This document shows positions 17,606-31,996 of a stretch of 64,000 nucleotides of DNA, piece after piece. A program made the translations under genes and the position numbers. Source of the DNA: Oscillospiraceae bacterium (GTDB taxonomy: Bacteria; Bacillota; Clostridia; Oscillospirales; Ruminococcaceae); contig JAIKWY010000073.1 of the NCBI GenBank assembly GCA_024684395.1, forward strand, positions 18,720 through 82,719, read 5' to 3'. Within the stretch, counting starts at the first letter, position 1. Each line of letters starts with the position of its first letter. Under the pieces are notes generated by a model. That model saw only the letters and a program-made list of their open reading frames with translations. It made no database searches and was not told the DNA's origin.

Positions 17606-19924
17606 ATGAAGAAGTCATTTCTGAAAAGAGTGATGGCTGCTGCGGTTGCAGTTCCCGTTGCTCTGACACAGACCGCCATGTTTGCTTCGTTTGCTGCTGG
17701 TGAGGAGACCACTGCTGAAGGCGATATCATTGACAAGGGCACATTTTTAAATATCGAGTGTGATCCGACAGTGAACAAGCCTGCAACTGGTGAGTACAAG
17801 GCACCGGAAGCAAGCAATGAGGATGCCATCGTACAGGAGAACAACTGGAACAGCGATCTGAGAGCTGCTCTGAACGCAATGTACGACGAGCAGATCGTTC
17901 TGGATCCTGCCAAGCTTGCTGATGATGTATCGAGCACCGCATGGTACTCTGAGTTCTTTAAGGGCGCAGTTCGTGCAGAGGGCACCAAGGTTACAGCAAA
18001 GATCCAGGATACTGAGGTCGTTATCACGATCGCAGTTGATTACAACTACGGCAACGACGCAGCCAAGAGAATGGCAAGGGGCAATGGCGCAGCAGTTGAG
18101 AACGCCATCGCAACTTACATGAACTCCAAGGCTATCGTAAGAGGCACCATCGTTATCACTGCTGATACCACTGACCTTGACACCAGCAAGGAGATCCCGG
18201 TATCCGTTGAGGTAAATCTGGACGGCATGGAGAAGGGCGACATCACCAAGACCTTCATCCCCTATGTTCAGAAGATGTGGGATACCACCCACGCTGAGAT
18301 GCGTGAGGCACTCGCTAAGGGCGGCGTAAGCCCGGATGCCCTCGAGTACCAGGTAAAGACCATGCAGGGCAAGATCAACACTGCTCAGAGAGCCATCAAC
18401 AGAGCAGGTGAGACCTACAACTACAACTACACTGCTGCAAATGCAGAGGAGCTGTGGGAGAAGGCCAGAGAGAACGCTGTAGATGAGAGCCCGAGATTCG
18501 GCCGAATCCCGCTGAGCATCGCAACTGGTCAGGACACCAACGCTTATGCATGTGCTTCTGAGATCTTCACTCAGGTGATCGACAAGATCAACGAGAAGTG
18601 CGAGATGAAGAAGAACAACTATCATCTGAACATTTCCCTCGACGGCGTTGTTGACACTGTGAACACTGTGACCAACATCACCGCTCATGCAGATGCAAGC
18701 AACTACAACTACAATGCAGATGCTTGGGGCTATCTGCCGGACGAAGAGTTCGAGAAGGATGTTTACATGGCTTACTTCACCGATCAGCTCGCTGCTGAGA
18801 ATGAAGAGCTTGCCAAGGAAGGCAAGGAGAAGGTCGTTGTAGACGTAGAGAGCGTAAAGGTTGCTGAGGTTGCTGGTACTGAGAAGACCGCTGACCTGAC
18901 TGGTACTGCTTATCTGAACGTTTACAGAGTAACCTGGCCGGAGTACGAGATCAAGGAGATCAAGGAGACTGATGCTACTGAGGATACTCAGGCAACTGAT
19001 GCTACCGAGGATACTCAGGCAACTGACGCTACCGAGGATACTCAGGCAACTGACGCTACCGAGGATACTCAGGCAACTGACGCTACCGAGGATACTCAGG
19101 CAACTGACGCTACCGAGGATACTCAGGCAACTGATGCTACCGAGGATACTCAGGCAACTGACGCTACCGAGGATACTCAGGCAACTGACGCTACCGATGA
19201 GACCGACGAGACTGGCCCGCAGGTTCGTCCTGACGTAAAGGTTTCTGTACACGGCGGTTTCTACTTCTCTCATGATCCGAGAGCGTTCTCCACTCAGAAT
19301 CTGGTTGATTCCGCAACCATCATCGTTGACGGTGAGGAGCAGGAGGCAGATCTGAGCAAGTTCGAGTTCAGCTTCCGCCGCAACACTCTGCTGAGCGATG
19401 CAGAGCCCTCCGGCGAGAAGGTTTCCCCGCAGTCCGCTTACGCTGACCAGAGCCTGAACCCGCTGGGCGGCTACTTTGGTCAGACCCTGTATGTATACTA
19501 TGAGGGTCAGCTCGTTGATGCTGAGGCTACTGTATACATCGGCGTTAAGGGCGACGTTAACAACGACGGCGTTGCAAACGCTTCCGATGCTGCGAAGGTC
19601 CTGATCTACGCTGCTGAGGTTGGCGCAACTGGTAAGGATGGCTACATCTACAGCCAGGATAACGAGAACTTCGAGAAGCTCGCATATTTCCTGGGCGATA
19701 CCAACGGTGAGTCCATCGACCACGGTAAGACCGCTTCCTATGCTGCGGAAGAGTCCCCGCTGAACGCTTCTGATGCAGCTCAGATCCTGATCTACACTGC
19801 AGCTGTCAATGCTTCTGACGATGGCAAGGCTGACTGGATCCCGACCGTTCTGAAGAGCGCTCCGTATCCGACTTACTCCGAGGCTATCGCAAAGGCTGCT
19901 GGTCTGATGCCGGCACAGGACTAA
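17606..19924 (+). CDS. Secreted dockerin-containing protein with (TDATEDTQA)8 linker
   Basis: 772 residues. A signal peptide (about 1-31) precedes a 420-residue region with no catalytic family I recognise (alpha/beta character, several YNYNY-type motifs). Residues 455-526 are eight perfect copies of TDATEDTQA, an acidic Thr-rich extracellular linker. A beta-rich module follows (KVSVHGGFYFSHDPRAF through ATVYIGVKG). The C-terminus is a type I dockerin: GDVNNDGVANASDAAKVLIYAA, then a second half with NASDAAQILIYTAA whose calcium loop is interrupted. Codon use (GCT, GTT, GAG-rich) differs from most neighbours and suggests high expression. The ATG follows AGAGAGG. The next gene encodes a cohesin-like anchor, suggesting a cognate pair. 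The function of the N-terminal region is unknown. Confidence 0.8.
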   Translation: MKKSFLKRVMAAAVAVPVALTQTAMFASFAAGEETTAEGDIIDKGTFLNIECDPTVNKPATGEYKAPEASNEDAIVQENNWNSDLRAALNAMYDEQIVLDPAKLADDVSSTAWYSEFFKGAVRAEGTKVTAKIQDTEVVITIAVDYNYGNDAAKRMARGNGAAVENAIATYMNSKAIVRGTIVITADTTDLDTSKEIPVSVEVNLDGMEKGDITKTFIPYVQKMWDTTHAEMREALAKGGVSPDALEYQVKTMQGKINTAQRAINRAGETYNYNYTAANAEELWEKARENAVDESPRFGRIPLSIATGQDTNAYACASEIFTQVIDKINEKCEMKKNNYHLNISLDGVVDTVNTVTNITAHADASNYNYNADAWGYLPDEEFEKDVYMAYFTDQLAAENEELAKEGKEKVVVDVESVKVAEVAGTEKTADLTGTAYLNVYRVTWPEYEIKEIKETDATEDTQATDATEDTQATDATEDTQATDATEDTQATDATEDTQATDATEDTQATDATEDTQATDATEDTQATDATDETDETGPQVRPDVKVSVHGGFYFSHDPRAFSTQNLVDSATIIVDGEEQEADLSKFEFSFRRNTLLSDAEPSGEKVSPQSAYADQSLNPLGGYFGQTLYVYYEGQLVDAEATVYIGVKGDVNNDGVANASDAAKVLIYAAEVGATGKDGYIYSQDNENFEKLAYFLGDTNGESIDHGKTASYAAEESPLNASDAAQILIYTAAVNASDDGKADWIPTVLKSAPYPTYSEAIAKAAGLMPAQD
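18968..19183 (+). repeat. Coding minisatellite, 8 x 27 bp
   Basis: Eight in-frame 27-bp units encode TDATEDTQA. The units differ by at most a few synonymous bases (GATGCT/GACGCT, ACT/ACC), so copy number could change by slippage or recombination without breaking the frame. Confidence 0.9.
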
Positions 19925-19948
19925 GTCCCAACATTGTAGGCATGTTGG

Positions 19949-19975
19949 CTGCCGCATCTAAGCGGTGCGGCAGCT
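19949..19975 (+). other. Intercistronic hairpin
   Basis: GCTGCCGCAT / GTGCGGCAGC stem-loop between the dockerin and cohesin-like genes, with no T-run. It is more likely an mRNA-processing or stabilising hairpin than a full terminator, so the two genes may share a transcript. Confidence 0.5.
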
Positions 19976-20019
19976 GCATATAAACATCATTTAATCTATT
20001 TGAAAGGAAATGAACGAAA

Positions 20020-20868
20020 ATGAAGAAGATTAGTTTCAAGAAGGTTCTGGCTTCTGTAGCTGCACTTTCTGTAGTAGCTTGCATGGCTGCTATCCCGGCT
20101 TCTGCTGCTGACGGCACATTTAACGTAAAGATCGACCAGAAGACGATTACCCTGGACGAGGCTAAGAGCGCAGTTCCGATCTACATCAAGGCTGATGCTC
20201 TGGAGAAGGGCTGCACCGACTATGAGTTCGGCGTAACTGTTGACCCCCGCTGCACCTATGAGTTCATCAACGACACCGACGAGGCTGAGGAAAAGGGCGG
20301 CGAGACCCTGAACCGTGGCGTTACAATGCAGCCTGGTTCCGGCAACTTCATGTGGATTGCTGACGCTAACTCCACTTCCCTGAAGAAGGCTCTGAAGATC
20401 GGTCTGGTTATGGTAACCATCACTGATCCGAAGGCTGGCGAGACCTATGACATCAAGTTCAGCAAGACCAACGGCGCTGGCAAGGATGCTGCATTCTGCA
20501 AGGATCAGCTCCAGACCCTGACCTACGATGTAGCTGGCGTTGATGGCTGGATCAAGATCGAGGGCGAGGCTGATTCTTCCGAGGCTTCCTCCGAGGCTTC
20601 TTCTGAGGCTTCTTCCGAGGCTTCTTCTGAGGCTTCTTCCGAGGCTGCATCCTCTTCTGAGGCAGCATCCTCTTCTGAGGCAGCTTCCAGCTCTCAGGCA
20701 GCTTCCAGCTCTCAGGCAGCTTCCAGCTCCAGCACTTCCGGTTCTGGCAGCAGCTCCAGCGGCTCCCCGAAGACCGGTTCTTCTGACGTTCTGCCGATCG
20801 CAGGCGCAGCAGCAGCTGTTGCAGTACTCGGCGGCGTAGCTCTGGTTGCTAAGAAGAAGAACGACTAA
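20020..20868 (+). CDS. Cell-wall-anchored single cohesin-like surface protein
   Basis: 282 residues in an anchored-receptor layout. Signal peptide 1-30 (ending PASAAD). Residues 31-185 form a beta-rich domain with cohesin-like pattern: VPIYIKADALEKGCTDYEFG, FMWIADANST, GLVMVTITDPKAGETYDIKF, and closing GVDGWIKI. Residues 190-245 are a Ser/Ala/Glu linker (SSEA repeats). The C-terminus carries a sortase-type signal: SPKTGS, a hydrophobic helix (VLPIAGAAAAVAVLGGVAL) and KKKND. Cohesins bind dockerins, and single-cohesin wall anchors (such as ScaE in R. flavefaciens) are known from ruminococci. The cohesin call rests on pattern only. AAAGGAAATG precedes the ATG. It lies directly after a dockerin gene with the same codon bias. 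Confidence 0.65.
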   Translation: MKKISFKKVLASVAALSVVACMAAIPASAADGTFNVKIDQKTITLDEAKSAVPIYIKADALEKGCTDYEFGVTVDPRCTYEFINDTDEAEEKGGETLNRGVTMQPGSGNFMWIADANSTSLKKALKIGLVMVTITDPKAGETYDIKFSKTNGAGKDAAFCKDQLQTLTYDVAGVDGWIKIEGEADSSEASSEASSEASSEASSEASSEAASSSEAASSSEAASSSQAASSSQAASSSSTSGSGSSSSGSPKTGSSDVLPIAGAAAAVAVLGGVALVAKKKND

Positions 20869-20897
20869 TTTAGTCTGAACCTTCTGAACACAGAAAC

Positions 20898-20932
20898 AAT
20901 TCCCTCCCTGTGCAAACAGGGAGGGTTTTTGC
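20898..20932 (+). terminator. Terminator of the cohesin-like gene
   Basis: CCCTCCCTGT / ACAGGGAGGG stem-loop followed by TTTTT, 30 bp after the stop codon. Confidence 0.85.
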
Positions 20933-20954
20933 ATGTATATGTAAAGATAGCCGT

Positions 20955-20986
20955 AAAAACCCCCGTATCTCTCGCAGATACGGGGG
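20955..20986 (-). terminator. Terminator of the alpha/beta hydrolase gene
   Basis: CCCCCGTATCT / AGATACGGGGG stem-loop; on the minus strand it is followed by TTTTTAC. Confidence 0.8.
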
Positions 20987-20991
20987 TATGC

Positions 20992-21843
20992 TCATAGCAG
21001 GCTGCGGAAGAATTCGCATTCCTCTTTGTTGATCTGTTTTGCCGCCGCATTCCGTATATCGCAGTGGAATACATGCCCGAGCCGCAGCTCGTCCGTCCCG
21101 CAGAACCGGTACTGATACGGGATCCCGCACCGCTCCAGCACCGGCAGCAGCTTCTCCGGTTCATGCTGTAAGAAATCCTCATTCGATGTCATGATGAACG
21201 CCGGCGGAAAATCCGCAGTGATATAGTCAATAACACTGAGCAGCGCCAGATCCTCGGGCTTTGCGAGGAAATCGTCAAGGCTGTCGAGCGCCACATCCGT
21301 GGAATACAGCCCGCAGTTGAGCGCCACGGCTTGCAAACGCAGCCCCTCCGGCGCCTTGAAAGGGAACTTCGCCGCATAAGCCGGATTCGTCAGCATACAG
21401 GAATACAGCGCAATGCCCTGCGCCCCGGCAGAATCCCCCACGGCAAAAATATGCGCCGTATCCAGCCCATACTCCTCCGCATGAGCCAGGATCCACGCAA
21501 ATACGAGGTTCGTATCCTCCAGCGGCGCCGGGAACTGAAACTCCGGCGTGAGCCGATAGGTATAATTTACCACCGCAAAGCCCTGCTGCGCCAGCTCCAT
21601 GCCATAATACTGGTAGCGCTCCTTGTCGCCATACGCCCATGCGCCCCCGTGAAAGCTCACGATCACCGGCAGCTTCCCTACAGCCTCCGCCGGGCGATAG
21701 ACATCGAGCTTATGCCAGACCGGATCACTGCCGTACTGAATGTCGTCAAACCGCCTGATCCCCGGCGGATCGGTCAGCCCCGCATCCCGGATATCATCAT
21801 ATTTCTGAAACATCGCTCGGATCTCCAGACTTTTCGCAGACAT
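20992..21843 (-). CDS. Alpha/beta hydrolase, esterase/lipase family
   Basis: 283 residues without a signal peptide. Hormone-sensitive-lipase/BD-FAE-like features: oxyanion motif HGGAW (65-69), nucleophile elbow GDSAG with Ser138, probable Asp223 in TSNEDFL, and His257 in LGHVFH. The fold is complete. Enzymes of this family hydrolyse short acyl esters or acetylated sugars; the substrate cannot be set. It is monocistronic, ending at a strong hairpin. Its upstream region carries a 25-bp palindrome also found before the TerB-Hsp70 operon, which suggests shared control. Confidence 0.85.
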   Translation of the reverse strand: MSAKSLEIRAMFQKYDDIRDAGLTDPPGIRRFDDIQYGSDPVWHKLDVYRPAEAVGKLPVIVSFHGGAWAYGDKERYQYYGMELAQQGFAVVNYTYRLTPEFQFPAPLEDTNLVFAWILAHAEEYGLDTAHIFAVGDSAGAQGIALYSCMLTNPAYAAKFPFKAPEGLRLQAVALNCGLYSTDVALDSLDDFLAKPEDLALLSVIDYITADFPPAFIMTSNEDFLQHEPEKLLPVLERCGIPYQYRFCGTDELRLGHVFHCDIRNAAAKQINKEECEFFRSLL

Positions 21844-21964
21844 AAGATCGCCCCCACATCATGATATTTGTCTCTATTATAGCATATAAGCGAAGCGTTA
21901 TGCTATAATTGCCCGATATGCAGGGAGCAGATCTCTGATCTGCGGATCTGCAAGGGCATCATTC

Positions 21965-21989
21965 ATAATGAATGCTATGCATTCATTAT
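21965..21989 (-). promoter_or_regulatory. Perfect 25-bp palindrome overlapping a -10 element (operator candidate)
   Basis: ATAATGAATGC, TAT, GCATTCATTAT: perfect 11-bp arms. The palindrome overlaps the -10 (TATAAT, 21985-21990) of a minus-strand promoter whose -35 is TTGCAA at 22008-22013 with 17-bp spacing. A second extended -10 (TGC TATAAT) lies nearer the hydrolase at 21876-21881. A closely related palindrome occurs at 28144-28168. Confidence 0.6.
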
Positions 21990-22084
21990 AGCATATCCTG
22001 CCATGAATTGCAATACTTTGTATCAAATAAAGAAAAACCGTCTCTGTGCACAAATTGATGCATCCAAATGTAGATATAAGGCAC

Positions 22085-22113
22085 AAAAAAGCGCCCGCCG
22101 AAGCGAGCGCCTT
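22085..22113 (-). terminator. Terminator of the TerB-Hsp70-GrpE operon
   Basis: On the minus strand: GGCGCTCGC, TTCG loop, GCGGGCGC, then TTTTTTG. It lies nine bases after the stop of the GrpE-like gene. Confidence 0.85.
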
Positions 22114-22121
22114 GATTCAGG

Positions 22122-24266
22122 TCAATCCTCTTTATACTCTGCCACGACAAGCGCCTTGATCTCGGGAAATTCCCCGCTCTTGTCCATGAATCCGCCCGAC
22201 ACGATCTCCTTGACCGTGTACATCGGATATTCCTCCGGATCTGCGGGATAATCGTCATCCACTTCAAGCGCCTCCATCGTCTCCGGATCCAGCTCAGCGC
22301 CGACCTCCGGCATGTAGCGCAGGAACCCGAGCTTATTCAGCGTATTTTCGAGCTTTTTCAGGAAGAAGCGCACGCTCTTCCAGTACTCCTTGAACTCCGG
22401 CGTATCCACCCCGGAACGGCTCTTATAGAAGACCTGCGTTTCGAGCGTCCGGAATGCATCGAGCAGATCCCGGAAATCCGTCCCCTGCAAGCGGCGGCTG
22501 GTATCCACCACAGAATTGATGGCGCTGTTGGTCTGCTGTTCGAGCGTCTTGCGCAGCTCTTCACACGCCGCAGTGATGGCAGCAGTCGCCTCGCCGGCGC
22601 TGTCCCGGAAGCTGCGGTTGGTCGCATTCAGCGCATTGACGAGCTCCTGTTCAAAGGCAGCCCGTCCGGCGACCATCTCGCCGACCTCCTCATTGCGGAC
22701 AGACGTCCCGTCGAACCGATATTTGAAGCCGGTCTCCCGCTCCAATTCTTCGAGCAACCATGCCTTCTCCGCCTCGATCGCCGCATCCGCCTCGATCCGG
22801 AGCGCCTCGTCCGGTTCGATCGTCTTGCGTTCCCGCAGATCGGCATTTTCCTGTTCCAGCTCTGCGATGCGCTTGTCCGCATCGTCCTTCTGGCTCTTGC
22901 CGAGCGATTCCTGATCGTTCAGCTTCTGCTCCAGCTCGGAGATACGCTTCTGCGCCTCCGTCAGAGCCTCGCTGTCCTGCGGTGCAGCATTTTCCAGTGC
23001 GATCTGGAGCTCCTTGACCTCCTCCTGGAGATCATTGCGCTCCTGCTCCAGCACATTGATACGCCGCTGTGCCCGGGAAAGCTCCTTGTCATCCGACTTC
23101 TTCTTCCCGCCGGATGCCATCTGCTTTCTGATCTCATCGAGCGTCTGCTGCAATTCGTTGCGCTCCAGCTCCAGGATATTGACCTGCCGCTGTGCCTTGG
23201 AAAGCGCTTCCTCATCCGGCTTCGCTTCCTGTGCAGATGCAAGCTGCGCTCTCAGCTTCTCTGTCTCCTGCTGCAAGTCGGCACGCTCCTGCTCCAGCAC
23301 ATTGATGCGCCGCTCCGCACGGGAGAGCTCCTTCTCATCCGGCTTCGCTTCCTGCGCAGAAGCAAGCTGCACTCTCAGCTCTTCCATCTCCTGCTGCATG
23401 TCAGAACGCTCCTGTTCGAGCACATTGATGCGCCGTACCGCACGGGAGAGCTCCTTCTCATCCGCCGCCGAAGCAAGCTGCGTTCTCAGCGACTCGACCT
23501 CCTGCTGCAAGTCGGAGCGCTCCTGTTCGAGGACATTGATCTGCCGTCTCGAACGTGAAAGCTCCGCATTCTCCTGCCGCTCTGTCTCAGCGGCAGCGAT
23601 CTCCTTCTCTGCCCGGAGCCCGTCGATCTCCCGCAGCAGATCATGCTTCTCGAGCTTGAGATGCGCCACCTTCTCACGATCCGCCTTCAGATCCCGGATC
23701 TCCTCGAGAAGCGCATCCCGCTGGTCGGCGAGCTCGATGGCTTCGTCACGGTTTTCCACCAGCGCCTCGATCTCATCCTGTAGCTTGCGCTTCTGCTCCC
23801 CGAGCGACACGAGCTGCGCCTGTGCGACGGTCAGCACCTCCTCCTGCACGGACTGCTGCGGTGCAGCCTGATCCGGCGGCGTCAGATAGCGCTCATTGAG
23901 CTTGGCGATCTGATTGAGCAGAATGGGCACATGCTTCTCCGAAAAGGACGGATGCGGCTTTTTGCCCGCTTTTTCGACGATCTCACGCTGCAAGTCGAGC
24001 GTGGCATTGGTCAGTGAATCATAGAGGAAGAAGTCCCAGTAATCGAGCAGCTCCGGGTCGATCATGCAGTGTGTCCGCAGCAGCGTGGACAGCATCGGAG
24101 ACTGCCCCTTCTCATACTCATGCCGCAGCGCCTCCAGGATATTGCGGAACGAGGTGAGCGCCGTTTTGCGGAAATAGTCATGCGTATAGGCATACTGCTT
24201 GGATTTCTCCCGGATCCGCTTCATTTCGGCTTTATATACATCATAGGAATGTCTGCTTGTCGCCAT
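22122..24266 (-). CDS. Large coiled-coil protein with C-terminal GrpE-like domain
   Basis: 714 residues (718 from an ATG that overlaps the hsp70 stop as TAATG; the ATG four codons later has GGGGGT upstream and is chosen). The N-terminal 140 residues are helical (YAYTHDYFRKTALTSFRNIL) and unrecognised. Residues 145-500 are coiled coil, including five to six tandem units of about 41 residues with core RRINVLEQERxDLQQE. Residues 560-650 are further helices. Residues 640-718 resemble the GrpE beta-wing: NKLGFLRYMPEVGAELDPET, then YTVKEIVSGGF and a final IKALVVAEY. GrpE releases ADP from Hsp70, and canonical GrpE is about 200 residues. With two Hsp70 genes immediately upstream, it is probably their dedicated exchange factor/scaffold. 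The GrpE assignment rests on pattern and context. Confidence 0.72.
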   Translation of the reverse strand: MATSRHSYDVYKAEMKRIREKSKQYAYTHDYFRKTALTSFRNILEALRHEYEKGQSPMLSTLLRTHCMIDPELLDYWDFFLYDSLTNATLDLQREIVEKAGKKPHPSFSEKHVPILLNQIAKLNERYLTPPDQAAPQQSVQEEVLTVAQAQLVSLGEQKRKLQDEIEALVENRDEAIELADQRDALLEEIRDLKADREKVAHLKLEKHDLLREIDGLRAEKEIAAAETERQENAELSRSRRQINVLEQERSDLQQEVESLRTQLASAADEKELSRAVRRINVLEQERSDMQQEMEELRVQLASAQEAKPDEKELSRAERRINVLEQERADLQQETEKLRAQLASAQEAKPDEEALSKAQRQVNILELERNELQQTLDEIRKQMASGGKKKSDDKELSRAQRRINVLEQERNDLQEEVKELQIALENAAPQDSEALTEAQKRISELEQKLNDQESLGKSQKDDADKRIAELEQENADLRERKTIEPDEALRIEADAAIEAEKAWLLEELERETGFKYRFDGTSVRNEEVGEMVAGRAAFEQELVNALNATNRSFRDSAGEATAAITAACEELRKTLEQQTNSAINSVVDTSRRLQGTDFRDLLDAFRTLETQVFYKSRSGVDTPEFKEYWKSVRFFLKKLENTLNKLGFLRYMPEVGAELDPETMEALEVDDDYPADPEEYPMYTVKEIVSGGFMDKSGEFPEIKALVVAEYKED

Positions 24267-24277
24267 ACTTACCCCCA

Positions 24278-25831
24278 TTATTTACGCTTGATGGAAACGG
24301 TATCCTCCACGGAAACGCCGTTGATATGATCGACCGCCTTCATGGAGAGCAGCTCCGCCTCCGAGAGCGTCAGTGTCTCGATGGTCTCGGTGTGAACCGG
24401 GATCTCGTGATCCTTGGCACGAGTCAGAGCGATCGACATGATCTCATGCCCCTCCGACTCCGGCACCAGCTCGTCCTTGTCGGCATAGGTATCCAGTTCA
24501 TACACCGTGAACACGGATTCATACTGGTTGAGCCGCCGTGTGAAGGAGAATGTCTCCGCCGAATACGGCAGCTGTACGCCTCTCGGGATCAGGATGCAGA
24601 TGCGGAACTCGCCGATGGCATCATAGAAATACCGGATGCCGTAAGCGTGGGAAGAAATGAGCTTGATGTGCTTCTTTTCCTCCTTCTTGCCCTCCTTACC
24701 GTCGGAGACAGGCGTCTGCCGCAGCCAGTCTGCATAACGTGCTGCGCCGTTGGCAATGGCATGTGCCGGGTTGACGCTGCGGACATCGACGGTCGGGAAG
24801 TGGTCTGCGATGGTGCGCAGCACCTGCGGCATGATCGAGCTGCCGCCCGTGAGGATGATATGATCGGGATCCTTGTCCTTGTGGCGGCTCACCAGTGCCT
24901 CCATCTTCTTGACGGCACGGTCGATCAGCGGGCGTGTCATCTCCTCGAACTGCTCTCTTGTCAGCTCGCCCTCGACCACATTGCCCCGCAGCTCCACCGA
25001 CCAGTAGCAGACATCCGTCTCGGAGAGCTCCTCCTTGATGCTTCGAGCCTCACGGCGGAAGTATGCCTGATTCTGGGGCGTGAGCTTGTCATCCGGATAT
25101 TCGTTCTGATACTGCTCGATCAGCCATTTTGCGACAGCCTCGTCCCAGTCGTCGCCGCCAAGCTCCGGATCGCCCTCCTGGTCAACGACCTCATAGGGCA
25201 CCTTCGTCTCATCATCGTTGGAGCGTACCCATGCCGCATCAAATGTACCGCCGCCGAGGTCGAATACAAGGATGTCCTCGTTCTTCTTGTTGCGGGCGCC
25301 GAAATACTCCACCGCTGCCGCCACCGGCTCCGGGAACATCGTCCGCACGACAACATGATTGCCGTTGGGCAGCACGATGGCAGAGATCGCCTCCTGGATG
25401 AGGTTCTTCTGCGGCTCCGAGAAGCCGACCGGCACGGTGCAGACTGCCTCGATGCGGAAATCATCCGCAAAGTCGATCTGGTAGTTCTCCTTTGCCACAC
25501 GCACCGCATCCAGCACCAGATGCTGGATGATCTCCGTGATGACATCCTTGACCGTATACTTGCGTTCGCCTGCCTCCAGGATCACGCCCTTTTCGTTCAG
25601 GCGGCGCTTGACAGAGGTCACGACCTTGGAAGCCGTGCGGGAGTTTTCCAGCTTTCTTGCCGCAATGCGTCCGTAAGCCTTCTGCTTGCCGTCGTCGAAG
25701 AACAGCGACGGGATGGCATAGGTCTCCGTGACCGGGATCAGAGAACGGATCTCGTCCCCCTCCAGATAGCTGCAAAAGCTGAATGTGGTACCGAAGTCGA
25801 TACCGATCGACAGTGTTTTTTTAAGCTCCAT
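24278..25831 (-). CDS. Hsp70/DnaK-family ATPase (paralogue B)
   Basis: 517 residues, about 120 shorter than DnaK. Residues 1-370 form an actin-like ATPase domain with intact motifs: GIDFGTTFSF (phosphate 1), VCTVPVGFSEPQK, VFDLGGGTFDAAW (phosphate 2), ILTGGSSIMPQV (adenosine) and NPAHAIANGAA. A basic linker (GKEGKKEEKKH) replaces the usual conserved hydrophobic linker. The C-terminal 130 residues are a short beta-type substrate domain (GIRYFYDAIGEFRICILIPRGVQLPYSA), and no helical lid or EEVD-type tail is seen. AAGGAGAG precedes the ATG. It is third in a TerB-Hsp70-Hsp70-GrpE order, and the downstream gene starts within its stop codon, so translation is coupled. Confidence 0.88.
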   Translation of the reverse strand: MELKKTLSIGIDFGTTFSFCSYLEGDEIRSLIPVTETYAIPSLFFDDGKQKAYGRIAARKLENSRTASKVVTSVKRRLNEKGVILEAGERKYTVKDVITEIIQHLVLDAVRVAKENYQIDFADDFRIEAVCTVPVGFSEPQKNLIQEAISAIVLPNGNHVVVRTMFPEPVAAAVEYFGARNKKNEDILVFDLGGGTFDAAWVRSNDDETKVPYEVVDQEGDPELGGDDWDEAVAKWLIEQYQNEYPDDKLTPQNQAYFRREARSIKEELSETDVCYWSVELRGNVVEGELTREQFEEMTRPLIDRAVKKMEALVSRHKDKDPDHIILTGGSSIMPQVLRTIADHFPTVDVRSVNPAHAIANGAARYADWLRQTPVSDGKEGKKEEKKHIKLISSHAYGIRYFYDAIGEFRICILIPRGVQLPYSAETFSFTRRLNQYESVFTVYELDTYADKDELVPESEGHEIMSIALTRAKDHEIPVHTETIETLTLSEAELLSMKAVDHINGVSVEDTVSIKRK

Positions 25832-25894
25832 TTCGTTCTCTCCTTATCATTTCGGGATCCGGCGTCTTTCATACGATTCCTCATACCTAAAATT

Positions 25895-25955
25895 GCTGAA
25901 GCAGGTCAAGGGGCACAGCCCCATAAAACCCCTTCCTCCCCGCTTGCGGGGAGAT
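25895..25955. repeat. Truncated family A repeat between the two hsp70 genes
   Basis: AAGGGGCACAGCCCC and CTCCCCGCTTGCGGGGAG hairpins without the GCCGCC core. It makes up most of the 130-bp gap and has no T-run on the minus strand. Confidence 0.55.
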
Positions 25956-25960
25956 CGCAT

Positions 25961-27526
25961 TCAGGAATGCCGGTTCTCTATATTGATCTGCCTGCGGATG
26001 CCGGCATTGTTGACTGTATCCTCCGCCTCAAAGCTGAGCTGAAGCGATTCATTGAGCGAGAGCGTCTCTCTGACGGGCGTCCCCGGATCAACGGGCTCCG
26101 GTCGGGTCAAAATCGCTGTCAGCACCTCACGCCCCTGGAAGATGGCAGTATAGGGGACGCCGTCGATCACGGCATAGCAGCCCTTCTCGTAGGGATCGCT
26201 GCTCTCTTTCAGCACATCCGTCTCATAGATGCCATAGACGCTGCTGCGCCGCCGCTCTGCCGAGAGATTCCCCATTTTGCTCGCACCCTCTGCTGAAGCA
26301 GGGAGCGGATCGTTTTTCCGGATGAAGATCCGGAGCAGCGGCTCATCCCCCCGCTGCGGCACTGCTTCCACAATGCCGTAGCCATGCGGGGCAATGTTGG
26401 CAAGCCCCGGCTGCTTCGCTTCCTGAGAAGCCTCCGCAAGGAGCGCCGCACCCTCTGCAATGGCACGTTCCGGATGGAAGCACCGTATCGAAGCCTTCTT
26501 CGGCAGAATGCCCGCCCGCCGGATGGATGCCTCGATCTGCGGCATATAGCTGCCGCCGCCGGTCAGGATCAGACTGCCGATCTTCTTGTCCTTCTGCCGG
26601 TCAGTGATCCGCTGCAGGATGGAAACAGCCCGCTCCGCCAGATCCAGCGTTGCTTCCTCAAAATCCTCCCGGGTGATGTCCAGCTCGATATAATCGCCCT
26701 CGTTCTCGATCTCAATGCTGACACGATCCGCCGCACTGAGCTGTTCCTTGGCATCCACGGCAAAGGTCTTGAGCCGCCGCCGCAGTGCCGAAGAGGTGGA
26801 CTTCCCCATCTGTTTGCGGTAAGCCCTTCCGAGCAGTCCCGCCATGACCTCGTCCCAGCATCGTCCGCCGAGCGTCCGGTCGCCGTCCTGGTCGATCACA
26901 CGGAACGGCATGTCCCCGTCCGGGGCATGCTGCACCAGCGCCACATCGAGCGTACCGCCGCCGAGGTCAAAGACGAGCACATAGTCGTCTGCCTTGCCGT
27001 GCGAATCCAGATACCGCACCGCCGAAGCGACCGGCTCCTGCACGACACGCTTGACTTCGACTTTCGTGCCGCTTGCGAGCTCTACAGCTTCCAGTGCAGA
27101 ACGCAGCACCCGGACCTGTGCCTGGTCGAAGTCCACCGGCACCGTCATCACGACCTCCAGCACATCCGGCGAGAGCGCATAGCTGTCCCGCAGCATCGTC
27201 TCGGCATCCGTGAGGAACCGTGTCAGCATCCGCCGGACGATGTCAGCGGGGGTAAATTCCTTGTCACCGAGCATGAGCTTCTGTTCAAGGAGCTTCGCCT
27301 TGATGCACTCCACACCGAACTGCGGATGGTTCCGGAACCGCCGCTGTGCATCGGCGCCGAAGAGCTCCGCCTTGCCGTTGTTCCAGTACAGAGTCGGGAT
27401 GCCCCGTGTGGCATAGCGTGTGGCAACGAGCGACTGCACCTGCTTGCGTCCCTTGCTGTCCACGCCGTGAACGAAGCCGATATAGGTATAATTATGACCA
27501 AAATCCAAACCGATCGAGATCTTCAT
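25961..27526 (-). CDS. Hsp70/DnaK-family ATPase (paralogue A, altered phosphate loop)
   Basis: 521 residues from the ATG with AAAGGAT upstream (the open frame extends nine codons earlier). Same architecture as paralogue B: ATPase domain followed by a short beta-type C-terminal domain (GYGIVEAVPQRGDEPLLRIF) with no helical lid. Motifs: VMTVPVDFDQAQ, VFDLGGGTLDVAL, ILTGGGSYMPQI, HPERAIAEGAA. The first phosphate motif is GLDFGHNYT. Aligned with DnaK GIDLGTTNS, Thr11 and Thr12 become His and Asn, so nucleotide handling may differ. It lies between the TerB-like gene and paralogue B and has a possible internal promoter. The two paralogues may work as a heteromeric pair. Confidence 0.87.
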   Translation of the reverse strand: MKISIGLDFGHNYTYIGFVHGVDSKGRKQVQSLVATRYATRGIPTLYWNNGKAELFGADAQRRFRNHPQFGVECIKAKLLEQKLMLGDKEFTPADIVRRMLTRFLTDAETMLRDSYALSPDVLEVVMTVPVDFDQAQVRVLRSALEAVELASGTKVEVKRVVQEPVASAVRYLDSHGKADDYVLVFDLGGGTLDVALVQHAPDGDMPFRVIDQDGDRTLGGRCWDEVMAGLLGRAYRKQMGKSTSSALRRRLKTFAVDAKEQLSAADRVSIEIENEGDYIELDITREDFEEATLDLAERAVSILQRITDRQKDKKIGSLILTGGGSYMPQIEASIRRAGILPKKASIRCFHPERAIAEGAALLAEASQEAKQPGLANIAPHGYGIVEAVPQRGDEPLLRIFIRKNDPLPASAEGASKMGNLSAERRRSSVYGIYETDVLKESSDPYEKGCYAVIDGVPYTAIFQGREVLTAILTRPEPVDPGTPVRETLSLNESLQLSFEAEDTVNNAGIRRQINIENRHS

Positions 27527-27595
27527 GATGCAGATCCTTTCCACGCAGCGCAAAGCGCAGCACTGCGTTTTTTGGCATATCAGTAACTATGTAAC

Positions 27596-27624
27596 ATTTT
27601 AGCATATCTATGCAAAAAAGTCAA
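27596..27624 (-). promoter_or_regulatory. Internal promoter before hsp70 paralogue A
   Basis: On the minus strand: TTGACT, 17 bp, extended -10 TGC then TAAAAT, just after the stop of the TerB-like gene. It would let the hsp70/grpE genes be made apart from the TerB-like protein. Confidence 0.55.
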
Positions 27625-27638
27625 GGTAAGTCCGGCTA

Positions 27639-28103
27639 TCATTCGACCAGAGCCCGCAGCTTTGCGATCTCTTCCTTCTCCTCATCGGTGACGATGCCGT
27701 CGCTCATGGACATGATCCCGCAGCTGAGCAGCACCAGCTCCCGGAAGGACGCCGCCAGCCGGGGGTTGATCGACCGCAGGAGCTTCATGCTGTCGATGAT
27801 GACCTTCTCATTGGAGGCGCTGTGCAGCGGCGAATCGAGCCCGTCAAGCGCCTTGTCGAGCTCCTTCTGGGTATAGGTGAAGCCGAAGAACTCGTTGAGA
27901 TAATCGACCTCTTTCTGGCTGACCCAGCCGTCGGCGGTGATGATGCGGAGGATCATGATGAGCAGCTCACGGGTATAGTAAGCGCCCATATCCCCGAGGT
28001 TTTCGGTACTCCAGTCGCCCTCCTCCTGCACGGCATCGCAGCCGATGAGGAAGCGCTCATATTTCAGCTTGAAGCTCTCAGCATATTCCTGGATCTTGCT
28101 CAT
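27639..28103 (-). CDS. TerB-like domain protein
   Basis: 154 residues, all helical, no signal peptide. Two acidic loop-helix motifs, ITADGWVSQKEVDYL (about residue 65) and MSMSDGIVTDEEKEEI near the C-terminus, match the paired Asp/Glu signatures of the TerB (tellurite-resistance, PF05099-type) fold, which can bind divalent metal. The start has AGGAGG upstream; the frame is open for 60 more codons without conserved sequence. It is the first gene of the Hsp70/GrpE-like operon, behind a promoter with a palindromic operator candidate. TerB-fold proteins often occur in stress or conflict gene sets. The role here is inferred only from context. Confidence 0.75.
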   Translation of the reverse strand: MSKIQEYAESFKLKYERFLIGCDAVQEEGDWSTENLGDMGAYYTRELLIMILRIITADGWVSQKEVDYLNEFFGFTYTQKELDKALDGLDSPLHSASNEKVIIDSMKLLRSINPRLAASFRELVLLSCGIMSMSDGIVTDEEKEEIAKLRALVE

Positions 28104-28143
28104 GACATTCTCCTCCTGTTTTGTGAGATCTCTGGTATCATCC

Positions 28144-28168
28144 ATAATGGATGCTATGCATTTATTAT
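28144..28168 (-). promoter_or_regulatory. 25-bp near-palindrome, second copy of the operator candidate
   Basis: ATAATGGATGC, TAT, GCATTTATTAT: two mismatches between arms. It overlaps the -10 of the TerB promoter in the same way as the perfect copy at 21965-21989. Confidence 0.6.
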
Positions 28169-28193
28169 AGCATAAAAACGGCGCATTTGTCAA
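28164..28193 (-). promoter_or_regulatory. Promoter of the TerB-Hsp70-Hsp70-GrpE operon
   Basis: On the minus strand: TTGACA, 18 bp, extended -10 TGC then TATAAT. The -35 lies in the loop of the upstream gene's terminator hairpin. Confidence 0.7.
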
Positions 28194-28209
28194 TGAAAAC
28201 AAATGCGCC
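28173..28209 (-). terminator. Terminator of the LRR-dockerin gene, overlapping the next promoter
   Basis: GGCGCATTTG / CAAATGCGCC perfect 10-bp stem followed, on the minus strand, by GTTTTTATG. The loop and right arm contain the TTGACA of the TerB promoter. Confidence 0.75.
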
Positions 28210-28227
28210 GGAATCATACAATTTAAT

Positions 28228-29991
28228 TTAAGCAAGGGTTGCGAGGTAGTCGGCAATAGAGTCGGTGCCGCCCGCCCCGACATAGGCGGCGTAGATCAGA
28301 ATGAGGGCAGCGTCCGAGGCGTTGACGGAGCCGTCGCTGTTGATGTCGGCGGCTTTCATCTGCGTATCCGTCAGACCGTAATCTCCGCCTGCGCCCGCTG
28401 CGGCGGCAGCGATCAGGATGATGGCAGCATCCGAAGCGTTGATGACCCCGTCATTGTTCAGGTCGCCGGATGAGATGTCGTCCTCCGGTTCACCATCCAG
28501 CGTAACAAAGGTGATGCCGTACTTTTCCGCATAGGCTTGTGCGGTGGAGTCTCTGTAGCCGTAGATGGTGCCGGTGCAGTAGTAATTGGCGGTACCGGGA
28601 CGACCCGTATTGCCGAATGTGTCTTCTCTGTCATATATTTCACAATCACGGCTCAATATTGTCACAGAGTTTAACTTATCACAGATCATAAAAGCTTGGT
28701 TTCCGATACTCTTCACGCTCTCCGGGATGGTAATGAATTCCAAACTTGTACAGTAAAAGAATGCTCCTTCTCCAATTTCCGTAACAGCATCCGGGATATT
28801 GACGGATGCAAGATTTCTGCAACGATAGAAACTCAAGTCTCCAATACTCGTAACACTGCCCGGGATCTCCAGAGAGGTCAACTCGGTATTTTCAATAAAA
28901 GCTTCCCCTGAAATTTGCGTCACGCCGTTGGGAATGATAACATCACCTTTGCAGGTGGTGCCATCTATCAGGACATTGTTGACTATCACCATCGGGTTAT
29001 TTTTGATCTGTGTTTTCAACCAGAGTGTCCCCGAAAACGCTTCTGCATCAATGCGTGTCACGCTTTCAGGAATAGTGATGGTTGAAAGGCGAGAACAGCC
29101 GTTAAAAGCCTCCTTTCCTATGCTTGTTACGCTGTCAGGTAGATGAATATACTGTAGCGATTCTTTCATATAGAACGCCCCTGCGCCTATTGCTGTAATC
29201 GTATCCGGGATGATAAAACTGCTTCCTGTTTCCCGAGCATCTACCAGGACACCGTTAACAACAACAAGCGGCTCCTGGCTTTGCTGTGCCTCCAACCACG
29301 GCGTGTTATCAAACGACAGGACTCCAAATTCTGTCAGGTTTTCCGGAAACGTGATTGTTTCCAAAGCAGAACAGTCTGCAAATGCGTAGTCACCGATTTT
29401 TGCGACTTGATCCGGAATCTGAAAGGAAGTCAGACTGGTACAGCTACGAAACATTCTGTCCTCAATACAAGTGAGCTTCGATGGCAGTTCAATAGATGTC
29501 AGCCCGCTACAGTTGCTGAAAGTATCAGTACCGATCTTTGTTACGGAATCAGGGATGGTTACTGATGTCAGATTGGAACAGCCCGAAAAGGCATAAGCAC
29601 CGATGCTGATCACACTACTCGGGATGGTGACTGAAGTCAATTTGGAACTTGCACGGAATGCATGATCACCGATGCTTGTTACGCCATCCTGGATAATGAC
29701 CGTTTTGATTTCTGGAATACTCCAGCTATTGTATTTATTGAGCCAGCTATCCAAATCTGTCCACGGTGTACTGTCTCTTGAATCAGAGTAATTATCCATT
29801 TCCCCCGTTCCGCTGATCGTCAGCGTTCCCGCATCATCCAACGTCCATGTCAGATTCTCTCCGCATGTTCCGGAGTATTCCTCCGCACTTGCGATGATGC
29901 TGACCAATTCTGTGATTGCTGGCAGCGGTGCGCAGGCGCCAACCAATGCCATAGCCGTCAAAAATGCAGCCGCTTTTTTAAATCTCATCAT
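28228..29991 (-). CDS. Secreted BspA-type leucine-rich repeat protein with C-terminal dockerin
   Basis: 587 residues. Signal peptide 1-37 (MMRFKKAAAFLTAMALVGAC start). Residues 40-100 contain a short beta module (LTWTLDDAGTLTISGTGEMD) frequent before such repeats. Residues 100-470 are LRR_5/BspA repeats of 23 residues (TIPDSVTKIGTDTFSNCSGL type), interrupted twice by longer units with PWLEAQQSQEPLVVVNGVLV-like motifs. Residues 508-587 are a type I dockerin with two good calcium loops (GDLNNDGVINASDAA and ADINSDGSVNASDAA). BspA repeats usually mediate adhesion, and the dockerin would attach the protein to a cohesin scaffold. GGAGG lies four or seven bases before two consecutive ATGs; the second may be used. 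Confidence 0.9.
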   Translation of the reverse strand: MMRFKKAAAFLTAMALVGACAPLPAITELVSIIASAEEYSGTCGENLTWTLDDAGTLTISGTGEMDNYSDSRDSTPWTDLDSWLNKYNSWSIPEIKTVIIQDGVTSIGDHAFRASSKLTSVTIPSSVISIGAYAFSGCSNLTSVTIPDSVTKIGTDTFSNCSGLTSIELPSKLTCIEDRMFRSCTSLTSFQIPDQVAKIGDYAFADCSALETITFPENLTEFGVLSFDNTPWLEAQQSQEPLVVVNGVLVDARETGSSFIIPDTITAIGAGAFYMKESLQYIHLPDSVTSIGKEAFNGCSRLSTITIPESVTRIDAEAFSGTLWLKTQIKNNPMVIVNNVLIDGTTCKGDVIIPNGVTQISGEAFIENTELTSLEIPGSVTSIGDLSFYRCRNLASVNIPDAVTEIGEGAFFYCTSLEFITIPESVKSIGNQAFMICDKLNSVTILSRDCEIYDREDTFGNTGRPGTANYYCTGTIYGYRDSTAQAYAEKYGITFVTLDGEPEDDISSGDLNNDGVINASDAAIILIAAAAAGAGGDYGLTDTQMKAADINSDGSVNASDAALILIYAAYVGAGGTDSIADYLATLA

Positions 29992-30136
29992 GTATCCTCC
30001 ATTTCTGGCGAAAATCCGCCTTGAATCACAATTATTATATCACATCTATACGAAAAAGTCAACTATATTTGTATCATTACATTCACAAGAGTTATACTTA
30101 TATGTGGTAAACTATTATTTGATGGAGGGTACAAAT

Positions 30137-30436
30137 ATGGTTGACTTTGGTGCAAAATTAAAAAAACTGCGCATGGATGCCGGAATGACGCAACAGCAGC
30201 TTGCTGAGAAGATATGGGTAACAAAAACCAGTATCAGTTATTATGAGCTTTCTGATCGTATGCCCTCCCCCGAAGTCCTCGTCAAGCTTGCGGCAGCCTT
30301 CCATGTGACGACCGACTACCTCCTTGGACTGGAGGAGAAGAAAAAATACCTTGACGTGAGCGACCTTCCCGAGGAAGACATCGCCCTCCTCGAACAGATG
30401 GCAGCAAGACTCCGCACACTTCGCCGGGACGAATAG
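30137..30436 (+). CDS. XRE-family helix-turn-helix regulator
   Basis: 99 residues. Residues 4-62 are a Cro/C1-type HTH (LKKLRMDAGMTQQQLAEKIW, SISYYELSDRMPSPEVLVKL, HVTTDYLLGLEE). A short C-terminal helix pair (DLPEEDIALLEQMAARLRTL) probably dimerises. ATG with GGAGG nine bases before; the frame is open upstream without conserved residues. It is divergent from the LRR-dockerin gene with 145 bp between the starts, so it may act on that intergenic region or on itself. No ligand domain is present. Confidence 0.88.
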   Translation: MVDFGAKLKKLRMDAGMTQQQLAEKIWVTKTSISYYELSDRMPSPEVLVKLAAAFHVTTDYLLGLEEKKKYLDVSDLPEEDIALLEQMAARLRTLRRDE

Positions 30437-30451
30437 CGCCCCGGCTGTTTT

Positions 30452-30482
30452 TATGCCCTAAAACCGCCTTTTTTAGGGCTTT
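30452..30482 (+). terminator. Terminator of the XRE gene
   Basis: GCCCTAAAA / TTTTAGGGC stem-loop followed by TTTT, 16 bp after the stop codon. Confidence 0.75.
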
Positions 30483-30488
30483 TGCCTA

Positions 30489-30517
30489 TTGACATTTGTT
30501 CGGAAATATAGTATAAT
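30489..30517 (+). promoter_or_regulatory. Promoter of the C39-like lipoprotein gene
   Basis: TTGACA, 17 bp, TATAAT, ending about 42 bp before the start codon. Confidence 0.75.
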
Positions 30518-30559
30518 GATGTAGATATTTGTCCAGAATCGCCGAAAGGAGGGGAACCG

Positions 30560-31483
30560 ATGCATCGAGTGCTGAAACGCTGTCTTGCGCTGCTGACAGC
30601 GGCAGTCCTGTGCTGCGCAGCCACAGGCTGTCAGAGCAAGGACAAAGCACCGGCAGAAGCGGAGATGATCGGTCCCGAGCTCCCGGCGGCGACCGCACCG
30701 ACCGAGCCGGAAACGACCGAGCCGGAGCCGACCACCGAGCCGGAAACGAAACCGCCCGCCCCCGCCGAAGCAATGGTCGAGAACGTGCCGTTCTACACCC
30801 AGCGTGGACTGCTCCCGACAGGCTGCGAGCTGGTCAGCGCCAAGATGGTGCTGGAATTTTACACCGGCAAGGAGGTGCCGATCGAGGAAGTGGTCGAGCA
30901 TACCACCTGCGCCTATCCCGAGTGGAAGGACGGCAAGGGCTGTGCGCCGCACCCGGAACACGCCTTCATCGGCAGCCCCTATGACGAGACGAGCTATGGC
31001 TGCTTTGCCCCGGTCATCGTGGAGATGATGAACCAGCTCCTCCCGGAGGGCTATGAAGCGGTCGATATGACCGGCGCCGATCTACAGGATCTGGCAGAGA
31101 CCTTCATCCCCGAGGGCACGCCCGTCATCATGTGGGCGACGATCGGGATGCTCAACGAGTTCCCGTGGCGCAGCTGGTACCTGATGGATGAGGAAGGCAA
31201 CCCGACGGACGATTTCTATAACTGGATGGCATTGGAGCACTGCCTGGTGCTGGTCGGCTATGACGAGGACTACTACTACTTCAACGACCCCAACCGCTAT
31301 GCAGCGAACACCGCCTATAAAAAGAGCATCGTGGATGAACGCTATACCACAATGGGGCGCTACTGCGTCGTTGTCCAGCCCTATGACGAGGAGGAAACGA
31401 TCGACCGTGACCGCATGGATCCCGACCTGACCGAGGAGGATCCCATCCCGGAGCCCGTCCCGATCGAGACAACAGCGCCTTGA
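30560..31483 (+). CDS. Lipoprotein with C39-like cysteine peptidase domain
   Basis: 307 residues. The lipoprotein signal ends at Cys24 (CAATGC lipobox), followed by a Pro/Glu/Thr spacer (residues 30-72). Residues 75-280 are a peptidase C39-like (PF13529-type) domain: VPFYTQRGLLPTGCELVS with Cys89 as nucleophile, His227 in ALEHCLVLVGY, and FNDPNRY as the third site. A short acidic Pro-rich tail closes the protein. It is predicted to sit on the outer face of the membrane; the peptide or amide substrate is unknown. AAAGGAGG precedes the ATG. It differs from the C39-like protein at 493-2286 in having no wall-binding repeats. Confidence 0.85.
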   Translation: MHRVLKRCLALLTAAVLCCAATGCQSKDKAPAEAEMIGPELPAATAPTEPETTEPEPTTEPETKPPAPAEAMVENVPFYTQRGLLPTGCELVSAKMVLEFYTGKEVPIEEVVEHTTCAYPEWKDGKGCAPHPEHAFIGSPYDETSYGCFAPVIVEMMNQLLPEGYEAVDMTGADLQDLAETFIPEGTPVIMWATIGMLNEFPWRSWYLMDEEGNPTDDFYNWMALEHCLVLVGYDEDYYYFNDPNRYAANTAYKKSIVDERYTTMGRYCVVVQPYDEEETIDRDRMDPDLTEEDPIPEPVPIETTAP

Positions 31484-31508
31484 CAAAAATAGGCAGCTGT
31501 GCTATACT
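31480..31508 (+). promoter_or_regulatory. Promoter of the Fur-family gene
   Basis: TTGACA, 17 bp, TATACT. The -35 overlaps the stop codon of the preceding lipoprotein gene. Confidence 0.7.
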
Positions 31509-31540
31509 AAGAATGAAAATTGATCCCAAGGAGGCAGCCC

Positions 31541-31957
31541 ATGAAGCAGTCCGGCGGCTACAAGACCAAACAAAAGGAGCAGATCCTGCAATATCTGACG
31601 AGCCATGAAGGGCAGCATGTCACCGCACAGGAGCTGTCCCGCCATCTTGAAGAGGAGGGCACCCCGGTCGGCACAGCGACGATCTACCGCTGTCTTGACC
31701 AGCTCGTTTCGGAGGGTGTGCTGCGGAAATACACCTTTGACAGCCGCACCTGTGCCTGCTATGAATACCTGCCGCACAGCCATGAATGCAAGCGCCATTT
31801 CCATCTGAAATGCCTGCAATGCGGCAAGCTCTACCATGTGACCTGCGAGCATCTGAGCGGTCTGGAGGATCATATCTTAGAGCACCACGGCTTCCAGATC
31901 GACCAGTCCAAGACGGTGCTCTACGGCATCTGTGCCGAGTGCCGGGAGAAGGAATAA
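31541..31957 (+). CDS. Fur-family metalloregulator (Fur/Zur/PerR type)
   Basis: 138 residues. An N-terminal winged helix (TKQKEQILQYLTSHEGQHVT, GTPVGTATIYRCLDQLVSEG) is followed by the dimerisation domain with both structural-zinc CxxC pairs (LKCLQCGKLYHVTC and GICAEC) and His-rich regulatory-site residues (HSHECKRHFH, ILEHHGF). It represses transport or stress genes when metallated. The regulatory metal cannot be decided from sequence; the extra Cys and His around HSHECKRHFH would suit Zn. AAGGAGG lies upstream of the chosen ATG. Monocistronic, with its own promoter and terminator. Confidence 0.88.
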   Translation: MKQSGGYKTKQKEQILQYLTSHEGQHVTAQELSRHLEEEGTPVGTATIYRCLDQLVSEGVLRKYTFDSRTCACYEYLPHSHECKRHFHLKCLQCGKLYHVTCEHLSGLEDHILEHHGFQIDQSKTVLYGICAECREKE

Positions 31958-31964
31958 CAGCAGA

Positions 31965-31996
31965 AGGGACGCTTTGCAAAAAGCGTCCCTTTTCAG
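31965..31996 (+). terminator. Terminator of the Fur-family gene
   Basis: AAGGGACGCTTT / AAAGCGTCCCTT stem-loop with TTTT, right after the stop codon. Confidence 0.8.

Follow-up and report, generated by a model that had tools for sequence, protein, structure and literature searches.

Accessory Hsp70 chaperones accompanied by a GrpE of their own are known from the GAP1-N2 GTPase systems. About 14% of the GAP1-N2 neighbourhoods were reported with Hsp70 and GrpE, and a subset carried a second Hsp70 lacking the peptide-binding domain (Kaur et al. 2020, PMC7159879). Hsp70-like nucleotide-binding and substrate-binding domains (NBD and SBD) joined with coiled coils have been described in the CoCoNuT systems, for whose Hsp70-like parts RNA binding and ATP hydrolysis of very low efficiency have been predicted (PMC11090510). 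Here, we describe a set of four genes in a stretch of 64,000 nucleotides (the window; positions 18,720-82,719) of contig JAIKWY010000073.1 from Oscillospiraceae bacterium GCA_024684395.1. This genome is referred to as G000, other genomes by G-numbers and loci by L-numbers. Four open reading frames (ORFs) were found on the minus strand at 22122-28103 in the order TerB-like, Hsp70-A, Hsp70-B and coiled coil with a GrpE-like C-terminus, and these are the four co-directional genes of a preliminary description of this DNA. The genes and the parts of the coiled-coil protein are as follows:

27639..28103, minus strand: TerB-like protein, 154 amino acids (aa); PF05099 27.4 bits, cut-off 24.4
25961..27526, minus strand: Hsp70-A, 521 aa, NBD and short C-terminal part; PF00012 126.6 bits (score of a longer ORF starting at 27553), cut-off 20.6
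24278..25831, minus strand: Hsp70-B, 517 aa, NBD and beta substrate domain; PF00012 145.1 bits, cut-off 20.6
22122..24266, minus strand: predicted coiled-coil protein with GrpE-like C-terminus, 714 aa; ORF, PF01025 and alignment
23877..24266, minus strand: its conserved N-terminal region (about residues 1-130), of no known family; aligned in 9/9 rows, no Pfam match
22770..23849, minus strand: its spacer, which spans about residues 140-499 and contains repeats 37-41 residues long; in the DNA, 123-bp and 111-bp tandem repeats at 23038-23565
22185..22640, minus strand: its GrpE-like domain; PF01025 36.6 bits, expectation value (E) 7.8e-9, profile positions 20-150 of 165

The composition of the set, its homologies, its conservation and the lack of a J-protein gene within it are established here by sequence analysis. 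With moderate confidence, we read the two Hsp70s and the GrpE on a predicted coiled-coil stalk as an accessory set that would form a private ATP-driven switch apart from DnaK.

Like the window, the GAP1-N2 systems have an accessory Hsp70 accompanied by a GrpE of its own; the subset mentioned also has a second, shortened Hsp70 (PMC7159879). In contrast to them, no GTPase or J-domain gene was found beside the set among the four genes and 9 neighbours, in a scan from which the GAP1 and FNIII models were left out. Further, the Hsp70s of the window belong to another clade, the GrpE domain sits on a repeat spacer, and the set and its relatives have TerB or radical-SAM partners. As no GTPase was found there and the Hsp70s are different, we class the set as a variant among accessory Hsp70/GrpE systems, outside the GTPase class. 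The preliminary description had known of no system with this exact composition; Hsp70 and GrpE in one set are already contained in the GAP1-N2 report (PMC7159879). No description of this gene set was found in the open-access literature searched, which is not proof of its absence. GTPase-containing sets were also observed in three other genomes. L160:3909-14376 (G113) contained Hsp70, Hsp70-vWA, GrpE and GTPase genes with the DO-GTPase domains confirmed by Pfam, L161:5894-12652 (G181, of the window's genus) displayed the same set by resemblance with its GrpE found by PF01025 search, and the set of G686 was GTPase-centred by resemblance.

The housekeeping grpE-dnaK-dnaJ genes have the Hsp70 fold, the ATP-site residues and the GrpE homology in common with the window, whereas the set differs in its two paralogues, which are predicted to be lidless, its changed linker, the lack of a J-protein and a GrpE fused to a long stalk. 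TerB-like proteins occur in tellurite and stress gene sets, and a TerB-like protein is what the window shares with these; no other ter family was found among the 9 neighbours. The CoCoNuT systems resemble the window in having an Hsp70-like NBD and SBD with coiled coils, but no McrB-type GTPase, nuclease or helicase family was detected in the four genes and 9 neighbours, and neither GrpE nor TerB appears in the text of the CoCoNuT paper (PMC11090510).

The Hsp70 pair and the GrpE-like domain

The housekeeping grpE-dnaK-dnaJ genes of G000 are on a contig other than that of the window. The only J-domain match in the whole genome was on contig C26 beside the housekeeping dnaK and grpE, and is the housekeeping DnaJ; no J-protein gene was found in the four-gene set. 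Both results bear out the preliminary description, which had kept the set apart from the housekeeping genes and had noted no J-domain protein in the cluster. The same genome contained a second unusual Hsp70 set (L015:2779-11652, contig C82), in which a 569-aa Hsp70 adjoins a protein of 520 aa that matches GrpE below threshold (17.9 and 21 bits; profile-profile E 0.036, no support), together with an 852-aa NB-ARC-like protein (21.4 bits, below the cut-off of 23.5) and two proteins without assignment.

The ATP-site residues K70, E147 and D169-LGGGT-x-D176 (numbering of the genome's DnaK) were conserved in both Hsp70s of the window. Hsp70-A differed from DnaK in having FGHN for LGTT, so that the two threonines after DLG are replaced by H and N. 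Among its orthologues, P0010 displayed the same FGHN, P0011 an N at the first threonine, and P0012-P0015 the threonine itself. The interdomain linker LMLLD of DnaK aligned with PGLAN in Hsp70-A and KHIKL in Hsp70-B, so that neither has the canonical hydrophobic linker ending in the aspartate D393. Linker and D393 are reported to matter for allostery and for the cooperation with DnaJ and GrpE (PMC6843406).

Both Hsp70s are predicted to be without a helical lid, as had been noted before, for Hsp70-B from a structure model and for Hsp70-A from the alignment with the genome's DnaK. In the AlphaFold model of Hsp70-B (6 rows; mean predicted local distance difference test score, pLDDT, of 71.5, lower in the C-terminal domain), the NBD is followed by an all-strand domain whose last strand covers residues 506-514 of 517. 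The top PDB matches of the model were 2v7y, a 504-residue DnaK chain, and 5obu, a DnaK lacking SBDalpha, with template modelling (TM) scores of 0.58-0.60; full-length Hsp70s matched it too. The high root-mean-square deviations (17.5 and 11.6, respectively) indicate that the domains of the Hsp70-B model are placed differently from those of 2v7y and 5obu.

The C-terminus of the coiled-coil protein is supported as GrpE-like, in agreement with the preliminary description, by two kinds of profile comparison. In a genome search with PF01025 (cut-off 25.8 bits), the window protein passed with the score listed above, as did its relatives in G172, G148 and G171 (31.2, 27.7 and 27.2 bits). By profile-profile comparison (hhalign) of the tail, as a profile of 5 rows, with GrpEs taken from 25/30 genus loci, a match was obtained with E 2.4e-6 and a probability of 88.9. 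It covers tail residues 128-200, which lie beyond the spacer and correspond to window positions 22170-22388. As controls, the reversed profile gave E 0.37 and the ten profiles with shuffled columns gave 0.13-0.9. A profile search of a large protein set returned at least 9 proteins, all of this GrpE-tailed family, among 7,999 candidates listed. Single sequences compared with the GrpE set gave E 0.042 for the G393 tail, 0.036 for the C82 protein and 0.013 for the G113 protein; single-row comparison is insensitive, because the Pfam-accepted GrpE of G113 itself gets no support.

The coiled coil is predicted from SMC-like matches and the content of Gly and Pro (9 in 361 residues). The alignment of orthologues revealed a spacer of variable length between two conserved ends. 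Between 2 and 5 repeat motifs were counted among 7 family members, P0004 and P0005 differed by 40 residues, which equals one repeat, and the spacer was mostly absent in G148 and G171.

Relatives, phylogeny and distribution

In all five loci that reach past Hsp70-B (the window, L001, L002, L110 and L111), Hsp70-B adjoined the GrpE-tailed gene. Hsp70-A was present in 4/5 loci readable upstream of Hsp70-B and TerB in 3/5, with L111 limited by its contig. The constant core is Hsp70-B with the GrpE-tailed protein, and the four genes are not a fixed unit, so that the composition put forward in the preliminary description does not hold as a conserved unit: of the five loci readable upstream, Hsp70-A was missing in one and TerB was not found in two.

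In L001 (G164), TerB, Hsp70-B and the coiled coil were present and Hsp70-A was absent; a search at E 10 of the 767 bases before its Hsp70-B, with L003 as positive control, detected no remnant of Hsp70-A. The contig of L002 (G172) begins just before Hsp70-B, and L003 (G165) displayed TerB, Hsp70-A and Hsp70-B, followed by the contig end. The TerB orthologues of L003 and L001 are 94% and 80% identical, respectively. TerB passed its Pfam cut-off narrowly and had no NCBIfam match; two DGxVxxxE stretches are seen in its sequence.

A longer arrangement was found in L110 (G148) and L111 (G171), consisting of Hsp70-C, Hsp70-A, Hsp70-B and the GrpE-tailed protein, together with a divergent fourth Hsp70 (Hsp70-D), a coiled-coil protein about 350 aa long and a small radical-SAM protein that is NrdG-like. 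The radical-SAM protein of L110 scored 104 bits with Fer4_12 and 100.8 bits with NrdG, under the NrdG cut-off of 126.1, and two further coiled coils come after its gene. TerB was not found in the L110 and L111 stretches at E 0.01, though in L111 just 441 bases of contig precede Hsp70-C. L166:2097-13491 (G136) and L167:2436-10162 (G323) also contained Hsp70-D-like proteins, accompanied by coiled coils and an AAA+-like protein (by eye). L166 also has an NrdG-like radical-SAM gene, and no Hsp70-A, Hsp70-B or GrpE-tailed gene was seen in either locus, which may possibly be an independent Hsp70-D module.

L159 (G393, of another genus) contained radical-SAM and coiled-coil genes, a GrpE-tail-like protein and three Hsp70s plus one truncated copy. 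The GrpE-tail-like protein was found with 25% identity (E 1e-6), reached a profile probability of 71 (E 3.6e-5) against the window tail and matched neither the Pfam GrpE nor the GrpE set. The truncated Hsp70, at L159:9091-9465 between two longer ones, is a probable sign of recent tandem duplication. L176 (G628, of another family) displayed two tandem Hsp70s that are 57% and 53% identical to those of G393. The genes beside them in L176:4621-9340 are presumably TraG/VirD4-like and transposase-like, names which hint at mobility.

In a phylogenetic tree of 38 NBDs, Hsp70-A, -B and -C and the Hsp70s of G393 and G628 formed one branch (support 96/96), apart from DnaK and the Hsp70s of the GTPase systems (97/97). 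The A clade was supported by 100/99 and the B clade, which includes P0016, by 98/96; A and B joined with 81/84. The A/B split is, from this tree, older than these species. The branching order among A+B, C and the G393/G628 group was not settled, and Hsp70-D was located outside the A/B/C branch. Confidence is lower for the wider joins than for the A and B groups because long branches meet there (C with the D side; the vWA-fused Hsp70s with DnaK).

The ratio of nonsynonymous to synonymous substitutions (dN/dS) was 0.12-0.14 for TerB, 0.14-0.17 for Hsp70-A, 0.09-0.11 for Hsp70-B and 0.16 for the N-terminal region of the coiled-coil protein, both ends of which were within 0.09-0.17; the comparison of Hsp70-A with G148 was near saturation (dS 2.75). 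By these ratios, the coding stretches compared (TerB, Hsp70-A, Hsp70-B and both coiled-coil ends) are under purifying selection.

The distribution of the set is patchy as far as sampled. Hsp70-B was found in 6/38 genus genomes at E 1e-30 and Hsp70-A in 1/148 family genomes at E 1e-40. The coiled-coil query, also run against 148 family genomes, returned G000 and, weakly, G101, whose match (25% identity across 91 residues, E 2e-4) was taken as a chance similarity of coiled coils. The tail profile was found in 1/396 family genomes (G000), a sample that excludes the other genus carriers of Hsp70-B. At E 1e-50, the Hsp70-A profile matched in 68/396 family genomes, nearly all with DnaK-like scores, and the only tandem pair among these besides that of G000 was in G393. 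G393 and G113 were opened besides G000, and the other 65 were called DnaK from score and frame length; two of these frames had an unusual length for DnaK (G051, 579 aa; G412, 380 aa). The lidless-Hsp70 profile at E 1e-70 was found in 3/391 genomes of the class (G000, G628 and G686), and the G393 Hsp70 at E 1e-60 in 1/16 genomes of its own genus. The coiled-coil partner of the long form had weak matches in 2/297 family genomes and none in G000.

At E 1e-40, Hsp70-B matched none of 50,697 phage records and none of 72,556 plasmid records, and the best 80 of 113 viral stretches matching the Hsp70-A profile were each at most 31% identical in the best segment. A clean empty site was not found: G168, the sole genus genome with the esterase that follows the set but no cluster match, has other genes before the esterase.

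A candidate chaperone switch and its rivals

In the proposed switch, the coiled coil would dimerise and hold two GrpE wings at a distance set by the number of repeats. The wings would expel ADP from Hsp70-B, which is always kept, and perhaps from Hsp70-A. Being lidless, the Hsp70s would hold clients loosely, and for that reason the cycle would govern the assembly or release of a particular partner and not general refolding. In place of a canonical J-domain contact, the client, TerB or the N-terminal region of the coiled-coil protein might trigger hydrolysis. Most speculatively, and by analogy with what has been proposed for the GTPase-centred Hsp70/GrpE systems, the client could belong to a stress or conflict response. 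If true, an Hsp70 cycle with its own exchange factor, no J-protein gene and no predicted lid would make the minimal Hsp70 parts for an ATP switch testable, and the A, B and C paralogues with their GrpE-tailed partner would be a marker for accessory Hsp70 systems annotated only as Hsp70 family proteins.

Several observations weigh against the switch. The GrpE domain was not recovered everywhere: hmmscan of the whole window protein gave no GrpE, one (P0004, named nucleotide exchange factor GrpE by NCBI) of the five orthologues scanned failed where 4/5 passed, and the precomputed Pfam annotation had GrpE in 4/8 family members, being absent for the window protein, P0003, P0004 and P0005. The misses with whole proteins are putatively due to the way scores are corrected for coiled-coil bias. 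For the tail, the AlphaFold model, with helices followed by strands, was poor (mean pLDDT 53.8), too poor for a fold search, and the profile comparison was used for that reason. Compared with DnaK, both Hsp70s lack about six residues after ELS, where a GrpE contact probably lies. The specialised Hsp70s HscA and HscC of E. coli are reported to be independent of GrpE (PMC4753570). This independence and the shorter stretch, which weigh most heavily against the switch, suggest that the tail may not be the exchange factor of the Hsp70s. Hsp70-A and TerB, each absent or not found in some loci (L001, and L110 and L111, respectively), are not essential to the core, and the 9 scanned neighbours do not make up a defence island.

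A wider proposal, which we make only tentatively, is that of an undescribed GTPase-free family. Its members would have between two and four lidless Hsp70s, most of them from a separate clade, no J-protein and a GrpE on a coiled-coil ruler of repeat-determined length, would be coupled according to lineage to TerB or an NrdG-like radical-SAM enzyme, and would act by ATP-switched assembly in stress or conflict.

Alternatively, though we consider it unlikely, the set might derive from the GTPase-centred (GAP1-N2 / DO-GTPase) Hsp70-GrpE conflict systems and be a relative reduced by loss of the GTPase. The published systems do carry Hsp70, GrpE and, in a subset, a second Hsp70 (PMC7159879), G113 has DO-GTPase, GrpE and Hsp70 by Pfam, the sets of G181 and G686 are similar by sequence, and the Hsp70 of G686 scored E 2.4e-76 with the lidless-Hsp70 profile. 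The tree, however, separated the A/B/C branch from the Hsp70s of the GTPase systems, which grouped with DnaK, subject to the long branches mentioned above. Nor was a GTPase detected in the four genes and 9 neighbours or, by Pfam, in L110 (5 proteins) and L159 (4 proteins).

Distinctly improbable is that the Hsp70s serve as holdases or RNA-binding scaffolds with the GrpE-like tail as a mere docking piece, as proposed for the Hsp70-like parts of CoCoNuT. The RNA binding and very low ATP hydrolysis predicted for CoCoNuT (PMC11090510), the FGHN of Hsp70-A and the altered linkers of both Hsp70s fit such a role. The remaining ATP-site residues, however, are intact in both, the A proteins P0012-P0015 keep the threonine, and the McrB, nuclease and helicase families are missing from the four genes and 9 neighbours. 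It is also highly doubtful that the set is a chaperone devoted to the secreted or cellulosome-type surface proteins encoded alongside: a dockerin-bearing leucine-rich repeat (LRR) gene lies just upstream, and the downstream esterase and the next two genes (secreted-looking by eye) recur in L001 and L002, but the left neighbour differs between the window, L001 and L003, the neighbours of L110, L159 and L176 are other genes, and the esterase was present in 4/38 genus genomes.

The idea of a known or candidate anti-phage system in PADLOC was dropped for want of a convincing profile match. The four genes gave weak partial matches only, PDC-M61B reaching 37.4 and 30.6 bits over about 200 Hsp70 residues and JetC, the best for the coiled coil, 19.8 bits.

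Gene boundaries and neighbours

The 9 neighbours scanned were the esterase, the dockerin-LRR protein, a C39-like peptidase, two regulators and four proteins without a family over the cut-off. No Rfam match over threshold was found within 18000-32000.

The TAATG overlap noted in the preliminary description between Hsp70-B and the coiled-coil gene is present as DNA letters. However, the ATG at 24278 has no visible Shine-Dalgarno sequence, whereas the ATG at 24266, 12 bases downstream, is preceded by GGGGG and agrees with where close orthologues begin (MTSRHSY), for which reasons it is the likelier start. An 11-base gap without overlap is therefore the likelier arrangement.

The promoter before the first gene and the terminator-like hairpin after the last one, both part of the preliminary description, were located together with a second promoter-like site:

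28164..28193, minus strand: promoter TTGACA-N18-TATAAT before the TerB-like gene; sigma-70-type, 12/12 consensus positions
27596..27624, minus strand: promoter-like site before Hsp70-A; 10/12 consensus positions
22092..22105, minus strand: terminator-like hairpin and T run behind the coiled-coil gene; of a class that barely exceeds shuffles

The promoter class was about twofold over shuffles (10 vs 5.2) and the terminator class hardly so (8 vs 6.4). Because of the second promoter-like site, TerB need not be co-transcribed with the other three genes. A 37-base element was observed exactly twice in the window on the same strand, at 21958-21994 before the esterase and at 28137-28173 before TerB, and brackets the cluster; in L001, L002 and L003 only its TATAAT core was present and the palindromic rest absent. 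The TerB promoter was identical in L003, and a similar TTGACA-N17-TATAAT preceded TerB in L001. Its retention in the window, L003 and L001, although the left-hand gene differs in all three, suggests that this promoter marks the 5′ edge of the unit.

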